The position numbers and the translations under genes are program-made. DNA of 9,062 nucleotides, taken from positions 1 through 9,062 of the forward strand of contig PWOD01000035.1 of the NCBI GenBank assembly GCA_003557545.1, written 5' to 3'. This stretch comes from a bacterium. Lineage in GTDB: Bacteria; T1Sed10-126. How positions within the stretch are numbered: the first letter of the stretch is position 1; every line of letters begins with the position of its first letter. Below the pieces are notes generated by a model. It saw only the letters and a list, made by a program, of their open reading frames with translations. It ran no database searches and was not told where the DNA came from. This document shows positions 1 to 3,305 of the stretch, in pieces.

Positions 1-961
1 CCGCCAGAACCGGGACGAGGTCCGGGCAATCTCCGGCATCAAAAGTAAAGGGTGGCGGTCTAAAGGGGCCGGTCAGCTCCAATCCTGGATTAGAGGTGTT
101 CCGATTAATCCAGTTAATTTTAGCTCCAAGTTTTTGAAGCAGTTTCAGAAGTTTTCTATCCGCCTGCAGATCATCCGGCTGGAGTCCATCCAATCTTACT
201 GTTCCAGCCGTCAGCAGCCCACCGACAATATGAAAAGCTGCCGAACTATAATCACCGGGCACAGTATAATCAAGTGGTTTGACTGCAGTTCGCTCTACCC
301 GGTACTGACCGGTTTCTGCAGCTTCAATTGTAATTCCAGCCCGCTGCAAAAGCTCGACTGTCATATCAACATAAGGTTTGCTAACCAGCTGGCCAGAAAC
401 TTCAACTGTTCCGCCGCCGATAGTGGCCAGAGCAATTAGCCAGCCAGAAACAAGCTGGCTGGTGGTTCGAGCTGATATTCTAATTATACGATCTGAAACC
501 GATTGACCCGGATAACAGCAGATAGGAACCGTATGATCATCCCCGGTCCCAGACAGTTCAAGATCATTCTGTCGGAAGGCCCGGACAAGTTCAACATTTG
601 ACCGCTTTTTTAAAGTACCCCGTCCAACGATACGAACTCTTTCAGGACCCGGCAAGACAGAACAGAGCGGCAGTAAAAATCGTAACAGTGTCCCACTTTC
701 CCCAACTTCAAGCCGATCGGTTGTAATTCCAGGCCGATCTGCGGCAACTATTTCAAGAGAACTATCCATCTCCCTCAGTCTCGAACCAAACCGGGGTAAA
801 ATCTCTTGAGTGGCCCGATTATCCTCGGAATCCAGAGGATGGTAAATAGTTCCGCCAGAGATTAATCCGGCGACTAATAAAGCTCGATGTGTGAATGATT
901 TTGAGGCCGGGATCCGCAGCTGGCCGGTTAGCTCAGCCGAATTTTCAACTATTGCTCGCAT
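1..961 (-). CDS. aroA: 3-phosphoshikimate 1-carboxyvinyltransferase (EPSP synthase), C-terminus cut off by window edge
   Basis: EPSP synthase transfers the enolpyruvyl group of PEP to shikimate-3-phosphate, the sixth step of the cytoplasmic shikimate pathway towards chorismate. I translated 320 codons from an ATG at 961; the frame stays open to base 1, so about 100 C-terminal residues of the usual ~430 are missing. Visible motifs, in order: PASKSFTHRALL (K21, S22, R26, shikimate/PEP site), GESGTLLRFLLPL near residue 85, TSQ (phosphate binding), SKPYVDMT, PGDYSSAAF, and CPDLVPVLA with D314 at the position of the catalytic Asp (E. coli D313). The SKSxxHRA, GESGT and CPD forms resemble the AroA branch I associate with Clostridia. 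The start overlaps the last 17 bases of rnc; CAGGTAG upstream can serve as ribosome binding site, so translation is probably coupled. Placing aroA behind rnc is unusual. Confidence 0.93.
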   Translation of the reverse strand, partial: MRAIVENSAELTGQLRIPASKSFTHRALLVAGLISGGTIYHPLDSEDNRATQEILPRFGSRLREMDSSLEIVAADRPGITTDRLEVGESGTLLRFLLPLCSVLPGPERVRIVGRGTLKKRSNVELVRAFRQNDLELSGTGDDHTVPICCYPGQSVSDRIIRISARTTSQLVSGWLIALATIGGGTVEVSGQLVSKPYVDMTVELLQRAGITIEAAETGQYRVERTAVKPLDYTVPGDYSSAAFHIVGGLLTAGTVRLDGLQPDDLQADRKLLKLLQKLGAKINWINRNTSNPGLELTGPFRPPPFTFDAGDCPDLVPVLA

Positions 962-1661
962 TGTTATCTACCTGAAGCGATTCCAGCGCCTGCTGGGCCG
1001 CTGACTGTTCAGCATCCTTTTTGTTTGTTCCGGTTCCCCGACCAAAAATCTCATCATTGATCTGAACATTAACCCGGTATTTTGGAGCATGCTCAGGCCC
1101 CGACACCGTCTCAACCTGATAGGTAGGATACTGATTCCATGTCCGCTGAACAGCCTCCAGCAGCCGACCTTTATAATTCTTACTGCCCTCCTCCAGATAT
1201 CTTGTAACCTGCTGTTTTAAATAGGGTAAGATAAACTGTTTTGTTATCTCGAGTCCTGAGGTCAAGTAAACCGCTGCAGTCAACGCCTCCACGGCATCGG
1301 CCAGTTCCCGCTGAAGACCACGCTGAGCCTTTTGTTCACCGACACCCAGTCTAAGCAACGGCCGCAAATTAAGTTTAAGGGCGATTTCATAAAGAGAGTT
1401 TGTATTAACAACCGCGCTTTTTATCTTGGAAAGTCTACCCTCCTGGGCCTGCCCAAACTTTAGAAAGATAAATTCGCCGGCAATCAATTCAAGAATTGCA
1501 TCACCTAAAAACTCCAGCCTCTCATTATCATAATCAAGATCATTTTCATTACGATAGCTGCTGTGAGTCAGGGCTTCAAGAAAATCGTCCGGGTTATCCT
1601 CAACAGGTAAATCAAACCTGTCTTTAAGTGCGGTAAGCAGATCATTATCTTCGTCAGTCAT
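945..1661 (-). CDS. rnc: Ribonuclease III
   Basis: RNase III is a cytoplasmic homodimeric endonuclease that cuts double-stranded RNA, including pre-rRNA, structured mRNA leaders and sense-antisense duplexes. The 238-residue product has the usual length. The nuclease domain (about residues 10-155) carries ALTHSSY (30-36) and the signature NERLEFLGD (46-54). The catalytic acids are E47, D54, D122 and E125, the last two in LADAVEAL. A double-stranded RNA-binding domain follows (about 160-230: NYKGRLLEAVQ, GRGTGTNKKDAEQSAAQQAL). The segment between GEQK and LAD is about one residue shorter than usual, but no key residue is lost. The ATG at 1661 is preceded by AGGGGA at 11 nt, a distant site set in a small hairpin. 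The 135-bp gap after fabF is structured and could be an autoregulatory leader, as known for E. coli rnc. Confidence 0.96.
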   Translation of the reverse strand: MTDEDNDLLTALKDRFDLPVEDNPDDFLEALTHSSYRNENDLDYDNERLEFLGDAILELIAGEFIFLKFGQAQEGRLSKIKSAVVNTNSLYEIALKLNLRPLLRLGVGEQKAQRGLQRELADAVEALTAAVYLTSGLEITKQFILPYLKQQVTRYLEEGSKNYKGRLLEAVQRTWNQYPTYQVETVSGPEHAPKYRVNVQINDEIFGRGTGTNKKDAEQSAAQQALESLQVDNNASNS

Positions 1662-1711: not shown

Positions 1712-1790
1712 CACGCTCCCTGACAATTCAAACAAAAACTGGTCATAATGGAGAAATCGAGGAGAAATGACCGATTACTCAGGGAACGTG
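1712..1790 (-). other. Nested RNA hairpin in the fabF-rnc intergenic region
   Basis: Two arms, 1779-1790 (CACGTTCCCTGA on the minus strand) and 1712-1723 (TCAGGGAGCGTG), pair over 12 positions with one G-U. Inside them a second 6-bp stem forms between GGTCAT (1772-1767) and ATGACC (1746-1741). The apical loop of 20 nt (1766-1747) is pyrimidine-rich and contains TTCTCCTC and TTTCTCC, complementary to Shine-Dalgarno sequences. No T-tract follows, so it is not a standard terminator. It begins only 6 bases after the fabF stop codon. Plausible roles are an RNase III processing site, an mRNA 3'-end stabiliser, or a regulatory loop acting on the fabF start region. A weak promoter-like pair for rnc (TTGTCA 1726-1721, TAAAAA 1702-1697, 18-bp spacer) overlaps its distal arm. 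Confidence 0.6.
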
Positions 1791-1792
1791 AG
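1751..1792 (+). repeat. Inverted partial copy of the fabF translation start region, 3' flank of fabF
   Basis: Read on the plus strand this segment repeats the minus-strand sequence around the fabF start. Block one, 1751-1772, equals 3059-3039 with one extra C at 1758 (21 matches). Block two, GGAACGTGAG at 1783-1792, equals 3036-3027 exactly. Between the blocks are 10 bases here and 2 bases at fabF. Both copies lie in opposite orientation and closely bracket the fabF reading frame, whose stop codon is at 1799-1797. Confidence 0.85.
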
Positions 1793-1796
1793 AAAG

Positions 1797-3038
1797 CTAA
1801 TATTTTTGCAGAACAATGGTGGCGTTATGTCCACCAAAACCAAAGCTATTACTAATGACCGTGGAAACCTCTGCCTCCCGCGCGATATTGGGCACATAGT
1901 CCAGGTCACAATCAGGATCAGGGTTTTGATAATTTATCGTCGGCGGAATCAGACTCTGATTAATTGTCAGAATTGAACTGATTGCCTCAACTGCACCGGC
2001 CGCACCGAGCAGATGGCCGGTAGTCGATTTAATCGAGCTCACAGTGAGGCTGTCGGCATGGGAGCCAAACACGGTCCTCAGAGCAGCAGTTTCGGCTTTA
2101 TCATTCAAAGCTGTTGAGGTACCGTGGGCGTTAACATACTGAACATCCCGGGGTTTGACTCTGGCATCAGCCAGCGCATTTTTTATACAGTTAACAGCAC
2201 CCTGGCCATCACCGCGCGGCGCAGTTATATGATGAGCATCACAGCTTTGACCAAACCCGGATATTTTAGCGTAAATACGTGCTCCACGTTTTTCAGCGTG
2301 TTCACGTGATTCGAGAACTAAAACACCAGCCCCCTCTCCCATGACAAAGCCGTCTCGTTCAGCATCAAAAGGACGTGAAGCTCCCTGGGGGTCATCATTT
2401 CTGGTGCTGAGAGCTTTCAAAGCACAAAACCCACCAAACCCCAGCGGAGTTATACCGGCTTCACTACCACCGGCAAGAATCAGATCAGCTTTACCATCAC
2501 GAATAAACTGCATTGCATCGCCCAGCGAATGTGTAGCCGTGGCACAGGCAGTAACAACCGCCTGGTTAGGACCACGACACTTAAAATGTATTGCTACCTG
2601 GCCGGGAAGAATATTGATCAATAGCTTGGGGATAAGGTAGGGGGACAGACGGCGAGCGCCCCGTTCAAGCAACCGTTGATGTTGGGTCTCAATAGATTCG
2701 ATTCCGCCAATACCAGAACCAATTACGACACCGGCCCGGTCAGAATCGTATTCCGGATTATCCGGATCGAAACCGGCATCAGCGACCGCTTCACGCGCGG
2801 CGACCAGACCATATTGGACAAAAGTATCCATCCGCCGGACTTCTTTACGGTTGAAATATTTCTCCGGTTCAAAATCACTGACCAGACCTGCAATTTTCGA
2901 ACTATATTGTTCGGTATCAAACCTATCTAGCCGGGAAACACCGCTACGTCCTTCAACCAGCGATTCCCAGAACTTATCCACACCGATACCATTTGGTGCA
3001 ACAGCACCGAGACCGGTAACAACTACCTCACGTTCCAT
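1797..3038 (-). CDS. fabF: Beta-ketoacyl-ACP synthase II
   Basis: FabF condenses malonyl-ACP with acyl-ACP, the elongation step of type II fatty acid synthesis in the cytoplasm. I chose the ATG at 3038 over the in-frame ATG at 3044: GGAG (3050-3047) lies 8 nt before 3038 but only 2 nt before 3044. This gives 413 residues, the usual FabF length. The thiolase-fold motifs are complete: nucleophile C165 in VTACATATH, H305 in NAHGTST, K337 and H342 in KSTTGHLLGAAGA, plus the C-terminal NSFGFGGHN. These positions are all two above E. coli C163, H303, K335 and H340. The two-histidine arrangement separates it from FabH. It follows acpP by 36 bp. Its start region is copied in inverted form just behind its stop codon, suggesting RNA-level control. 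Confidence 0.96.
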   Translation of the reverse strand: MEREVVVTGLGAVAPNGIGVDKFWESLVEGRSGVSRLDRFDTEQYSSKIAGLVSDFEPEKYFNRKEVRRMDTFVQYGLVAAREAVADAGFDPDNPEYDSDRAGVVIGSGIGGIESIETQHQRLLERGARRLSPYLIPKLLINILPGQVAIHFKCRGPNQAVVTACATATHSLGDAMQFIRDGKADLILAGGSEAGITPLGFGGFCALKALSTRNDDPQGASRPFDAERDGFVMGEGAGVLVLESREHAEKRGARIYAKISGFGQSCDAHHITAPRGDGQGAVNCIKNALADARVKPRDVQYVNAHGTSTALNDKAETAALRTVFGSHADSLTVSSIKSTTGHLLGAAGAVEAISSILTINQSLIPPTINYQNPDPDCDLDYVPNIAREAEVSTVISNSFGFGGHNATIVLQKY

Positions 3039-3059
3039 GGTCATTTCTCCTCATTTCTC
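3027..3059 (-). promoter_or_regulatory. fabF ribosome binding site and start, with tandem 10-mer and complement downstream of the gene
   Basis: The leader contains two adjacent copies of GAGAAATGA(G/C) (3059-3040), with the Shine-Dalgarno GAGGAG at 3052-3047. ATG triplets occur at 3054, 3044 and 3038; spacing favours 3038. The ATG at 3054 would open an out-of-frame 8-codon ORF (MRRNDHGT) ending inside fabF. The region is complementary to the RNA from 1792-1751. Confidence 0.7.
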
Positions 3060-3074
3060 GCAATATTGTAGCGA

Positions 3075-3305
3075 TTACTGCTTTGATTCAATCTGTGCTA
3101 CAGCTTCTCCAACTGTAGAAATCTTTTCGGCTTCCTCATCTGAAATTTCAATATCAAACTCAACCTCGAAAGCCATAATCAGTTCAGCAAGGTCGAGCGA
3201 GTCGGCGTTAAGATCTTCAGTGAAAGAAGCTTCATCTGTAATTTCAGAACTAGCAACTCCCAGTTGATCTTCAATAATTTCCGCAACAGTGTCCTTAACC
3301 GACAT
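3075..3305 (-). CDS. acpP: Acyl carrier protein
   Basis: ACP carries growing acyl chains on a 4'-phosphopantetheine arm through fatty acid and phospholipid synthesis. The 76-residue, strongly acidic, four-helix protein has the attachment motif [10 protein letters not shown], with S36 as the modified serine. The residue two before D35 is Asn where Gly is more common, a tolerated change. A GTG at 3314 is in frame, but it lies inside the Shine-Dalgarno AGGAGGTG (3319-3312). The ATG at 3305 sits 8 nt behind AGGAGG and is the real start. The site matches AGGAGGTGAT almost perfectly, fitting a very highly expressed protein. A 186-bp gap with a promoter candidate separates it from fabG, so it probably has transcription of its own. 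Confidence 0.97.

Follow-up and report, generated by a model that had tools for sequence, protein, structure and literature searches.

Gene content of the fabF locus

The window, which is the whole 9,062-nucleotide stretch of DNA analysed here, is an entire contig of a MAG. It carries acpP, fabF and rnc in that order on the minus strand, together with two complementary segments, one at each end of fabF (Table 1). The initial annotation had placed an RNase III gene directly downstream of fabF. The domain matches bear this out, and rnc likewise follows fabF in the one other genome of the phylum that was compared, G001, which belongs to a different genus and whose FabF is 81% identical. Both organisms that carry the element are known from MAGs alone.

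Table 1. Genes and paired segments at the fabF locus (positions are those of the window)
Feature	Position	Strand	Evidence or remark
acpP, acyl carrier protein	3075..3305	(-)	PF00550, E 2.7e-12; directly upstream of fabF
fabF, beta-ketoacyl-ACP synthase	1797..3038	(-)	PF00109, E 3.8e-63, and PF02801, E 4.6e-40; second ATG as probable start
rnc, RNase III with dsRNA-binding domain	945..1661	(-)	PF14622, E 1.7e-30, and PF00035, E 5.5e-19; next downstream of fabF
5' arm: fabF leader with SD (GAGGAG), spacer, start region and codons 2-5	3027..3059	(-)	Conserved in L034 (G001)
3' arm: antisense copy of the fabF translation start region	1751..1792	(-)	Starts 4 nt past the stop; loop 1773-1782, bulged G 1758
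Shine-Dalgarno region GAGGAGAA	3045..3052	(-)	Within the 14-bp perfect helix

fabF probably starts at the second ATG (3038-3036) rather than the first (3044-3042), judging from spacing and homology. The second ATG has an SD spacing of 8 nt, and the protein begins MEREVVVTGLG in the window and MGREVVVTGLG in G001, both of which we take to resemble the customary FabF N-terminus. The first ATG leaves only a few bases between GGAG and the start, and the ORF read from it spans 1797-3044.

Structure of the predicted pairing

The 5' arm reads, on the minus strand, GAGAAAT (3059-3053), GAGGAGAAATGACC (3052-3039), AT (3038-3037) and GGAACGTGAG (3036-3027). The 3' arm begins 0-4 nt past the fabF stop in the two genomes. 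Read on the minus strand, it opens with CTCACGTTCC (1792-1783) and the loop CTGAGTAATC (1782-1773) and continues with GGTCATTTCTCCTC (1772-1759), the bulged G (1758) and ATTTCTC (1757-1751). The arm duplex has 7+14+10 = 31 Watson-Crick pairs, interrupted by one bulge and one 2x10 loop, which reproduces the arm coordinates and the structure first reported for this locus. Because the start is probably the second ATG, the duplex appears to cover the SD, the spacer and codons 2-5, and the internal loop takes in the start codon's A and U. The initial annotation had the duplex covering GAGGAG and codons 1-4; the SD part of this holds, and the codons are now 2-5.

The isolated arms have a predicted duplex energy of about -46 kcal/mol in the window and about -45 in G001. 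RNAduplex with long flanks was noisy, and the analysis therefore relied on shorter flanks and on folds of whole messages. In these folds, which are equilibrium predictions without ribosomes, the SD is paired with the 3' arm at a probability of about 1 in the full-length fabF mRNAs of both genomes, and also in the whole acpP-fabF-rnc transcript of the window genome. The predictions agree with the pairing proposed initially. Extended double-stranded RNA upstream of rnc is also predicted for the fabF-rnc transcripts of both genomes, co-transcription of the two genes being assumed. The coding strand between fabF and rnc showed no terminator-like site, and the 3' arm may therefore belong to an intercistronic spacer and not be a true 3' UTR end.

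Specificity of the complementarity

The complementarity is real and not a chance match. A search of the 2.15 Mb assembly that tolerated one mismatch found the 14-mer GAGGAGAAATGACC at these two places only, and controls in which ends were re-paired gave at least 14 complementary nt once in 6000. This upholds the view in the initial annotation that a match of this kind was unlikely to be accidental. Among 134 fabF loci, including those of the two genomes, these two have 14-15 complementary nt and the rest at most 9. Duplex energies compared with shuffled flanks at the same 134 loci give z-scores of -6.3 and -6.9 for the two, -2.5 for the next locus, and a mean of -0.2 for the rest. The 44 other fabF loci that likewise include acpP and rnc show no such pairing, which rules out a general habit of fabF-rnc operons. 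An assembly artefact is likewise ruled out by the same element in an independent MAG.

Nor is the pairing a general habit of these two genomes, as judged from 513 sampled genes (about 0.35 Mb of G000 and 0.45 Mb of G001), in which the start region and the 3' flank typically share 5-8 complementary nt. fabF is the sole outlier in this sample, save for a 17-nt match at a transposase-like gene in G001 (L183:8440-9375). The latter gene is flanked by the inverted sequences CCTCGGAGGTTGAAAGTTTGAAA and TTTCAAACTTTCAACCTCCGAGG, which probably mark where a mobile element ends on either side, and judged by eye it resembles a REP-associated (Y1-type) transposase.

The 3' arm could work mostly in trans, either as a small RNA derived from the 3' region or by pairing one mRNA copy with another. 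Intermolecular pairing would in principle be equally stable, and a dimer-like form of the icaR mRNA has been seen in vitro (PMC3868564). Such a role appears unlikely, however: the best target of each 3' arm is its own fabF, among 225 and 385 sampled starts, with a margin of at least 6.7 kcal/mol over the next-best one in each genome. No convincing trans target was found among the sampled starts, and the extended exact match in the window genome occurs only at fabF.

Conservation and covariation in a second genus

G001 has the same gene order, consisting of plsX, fabH, fabD, fabG, acpP, fabF, rnc and an aroA-like gene. CACGTTTCCTAACTGGTCATTTCTCCTCCGCTTCTC lies right after its fabF stop and is complementary to its own fabF leader, GAGAAGTGAGGAGAAATGACCATGGGACGTG. 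The two fabF genes are identical at 78 of 189 fourfold degenerate sites (41%), and neutral sites are therefore close to saturation. The 3' arms are identical at 26 of 30 compared positions (binomial p 4e-7 against 41%), and the remainder of the fabF-rnc spacer cannot be aligned between the genomes, the best 30-nt match there being 17/30. A wider search of the phylum for relatives returned G001 alone, and a search of genome contigs found none above 57% identity; viral contigs gave distant relatives only.

Counted on the 31-pair structure of the initial annotation, 30 of the pairs are retained in G001. Helix 1 has one clean double change, from A-U to G-C, and one further double change lies past the broken pair, where helix 2 ends. 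Four pairs are not Watson-Crick in G001: three have one-sided changes, each of which leaves a G-U pair in the mRNA, and one is broken. Sliding the register by 1-3 lowers the paired cells to 43-53%. A column-shuffle control is powerless with two sequences (135/500), and because there are two sequences the covariation rests on the clean double change and the helix-end change. The compensatory changes that the initial annotation had expected of a functional pairing are present to this extent, with one clean double change and three changes that preserve G-U pairing against a background of near-saturated neutral sites.

A neutral inverted duplication had been considered from the outset as an alternative. 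Template-switching events produce short inverted copies, and recurrent copying from arm to arm could also yield a double change at one pair. The 3' arms of both genomes share a 1-nt insertion (the bulge) and an enlarged loop, neither of which is found in the 5' arms. This suggests one old origin followed by co-evolution and argues against repeated or recent recopying. The element appears to predate the split between the genera and to have been kept while neutral sites neared saturation, and with this conservation across genera a neutral origin is now very unlikely.

The arms are also inverted repeats that flank 1.25 kb, and could be DNA sites, either the ends of an invertible stretch that contains fabF or an operator bound by a protein. 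Either arm could provide an SD after inversion. The orientation is the same in both genomes, however, and the changes in G001 keep G-U pairing in RNA and not symmetry in DNA. fabF is moreover a core gene, and a role of the arms as DNA sites seems extremely improbable.

Proposed function of the pairing

Pairing potential, conservation, covariation, position and gene order are demonstrated at the level of sequence, and it is likely, though well short of certain, that the arms act as an end-to-end latch of the mRNA, which blocks fabF initiation and probably forms an RNase III substrate just before rnc. We infer three activities, namely fabF repression, ribosome sensing and RNase III cleavage. The 3' arm would be a cis-acting mRNA element. 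Once RNA polymerase has moved past the fabF stop, the arm would fold back over 1.25 kb onto the fabF leader, burying the SD and codons 2-5 and shutting off new fabF initiation, and acpP, upstream of the 5' arm, would stay translatable. The terminating ribosome should cover the 3' arm because it starts so close to the stop, and with this cover heavily translated messages would stay open and idle ones would latch. The neighboring helices (21 and 10 bp) appear long enough for an RNase III substrate, and a cut would strip off the fabF start and leave rnc with a new 5' end. Translation during transcription could hold the 5' arm occupied, which may count against the latch.

Paired ends might also stabilize or mature the message, as the stems that bracket 16S and 23S rRNA do, with a positive or neutral effect on fabF. 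The geometry is that of rRNA processing stalks, whose complementary arms flank a single gene and are open to RNase III cleavage. The SD and start region lie within the 5' arm, however, so that fabF would not be translatable from a message whose stem is closed or cut, and a stabilizing role is quite unlikely.

It is possible, if less than likely, that the duplex chiefly serves rnc, as an RNase III operator and long-range counterpart of E. coli rncO, with the control of fabF as a by-product. RNase III cleavage would in that case separate rnc from fabF and destabilize the rnc message, resulting in autoregulation. The duplex is of sufficient length and immediately precedes rnc in the two genomes, and RNase III is known to cleave its own transcript in E. 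coli (PMC8708148), S. aureus and Streptomyces (PMC3386247). A local hairpin would be enough for this purpose, however, and the 44 other loci with acpP and rnc do without the duplex. What the arm copies is precisely the fabF start region, which points to fabF translation. If fabF and rnc are co-transcribed, the stem would, like E. coli rncO (PMC8708148), place double-stranded RNA shortly ahead of rnc, but rncO is a local 5' UTR structure, whereas the fabF stem is long-range, across fabF.

More tentatively, one stem could serve both as the fabF off-switch and as the RNase III operator of rnc, with translation across the fabF stop as the sensor; we regard this combination as rather unlikely. If true, a single cut would link the capacity for fatty-acid elongation to the level of RNase III.

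Relation to known end-to-end pairings

In S. aureus the 3' region of icaR pairs with its own SD, blocks initiation and creates an RNase III substrate (PMC3868564). The icaR pairing depends on a 7-nt UCCCCUG motif that lies 260 nt past the stop and is not in the icaR 3' UTR of the other staphylococci examined (PMC3868564). fabF resembles icaR in that a segment downstream of the gene, putatively in the 3' region of its own mRNA, is complementary to its own SD region, which in the fabF case is known from sequence. Unlike in icaR, the fabF duplex has 31 bp, begins 0-4 nt past the stop and is conserved between genera; the gene that is bracketed is a core metabolic one, and rnc is the next gene. Of the icaR-like end-to-end control proposed in the initial annotation, the pairing and the gene order are kept in G001, the only available relative, and the control itself is taken forward here as the latch described above.

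In the type I toxin mRNAs hok and aapA, a long-distance interaction between the 5' and 3' ends hides the ribosome binding site (PMC6733600). As in these, an anti-SD far downstream of the fabF start could occlude the ribosome binding site end to end, and the folding is conserved. Judged by its sequence, the fabF element may work like icaR and hok/aapA. The toxin messages are short, activated by 3' trimming and controlled by antisense RNA, whereas fabF is a 1.24 kb fatty-acid synthesis gene inside an operon. A type I toxin-antitoxin system was rejected for the locus, the message being fabF and an antisense promoter-like site (see below) having no counterpart in G001.

Few cases are known of bacterial end-to-end mRNA pairing over a start site (icaR and the toxin mRNAs), and a literature search for a case at acpP-fabF-rnc found none. 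What is new here is a 31-bp version at a core fatty-acid gene, found with covariation in two genera of a little-sampled phylum and located directly before rnc. The fabF case suggests that housekeeping genes are regulated by latches of this sort, and an anti-SD copy just past a stop codon is a signature that can be searched for in other genomes.

Other features of the locus

The window and L034 of G001 have no Rfam match above the gathering score. Two antisense features at the 3' arm were considered and rejected. A small ORF on the plus strand (1767-1976), with the 3' arm as SD and ATG, meets a stop after three codons in G001. The promoter-like site at 1720-1749 (plus strand, CTGACA-18-CATAAT) ends just before the 3' arm and lacks a counterpart in that genome.

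The 5' arm (3039-3059) is itself a near-tandem repeat, of GAGAAATGAG and GAGAAATGACC. The fabF-rnc spacer of G001 (L034:2014-2107) contains a tandem 24-nt unit, GCAACTTTTTAACTTTCACACTTT, in 3.9 copies with 100% matches, which is absent from the window.
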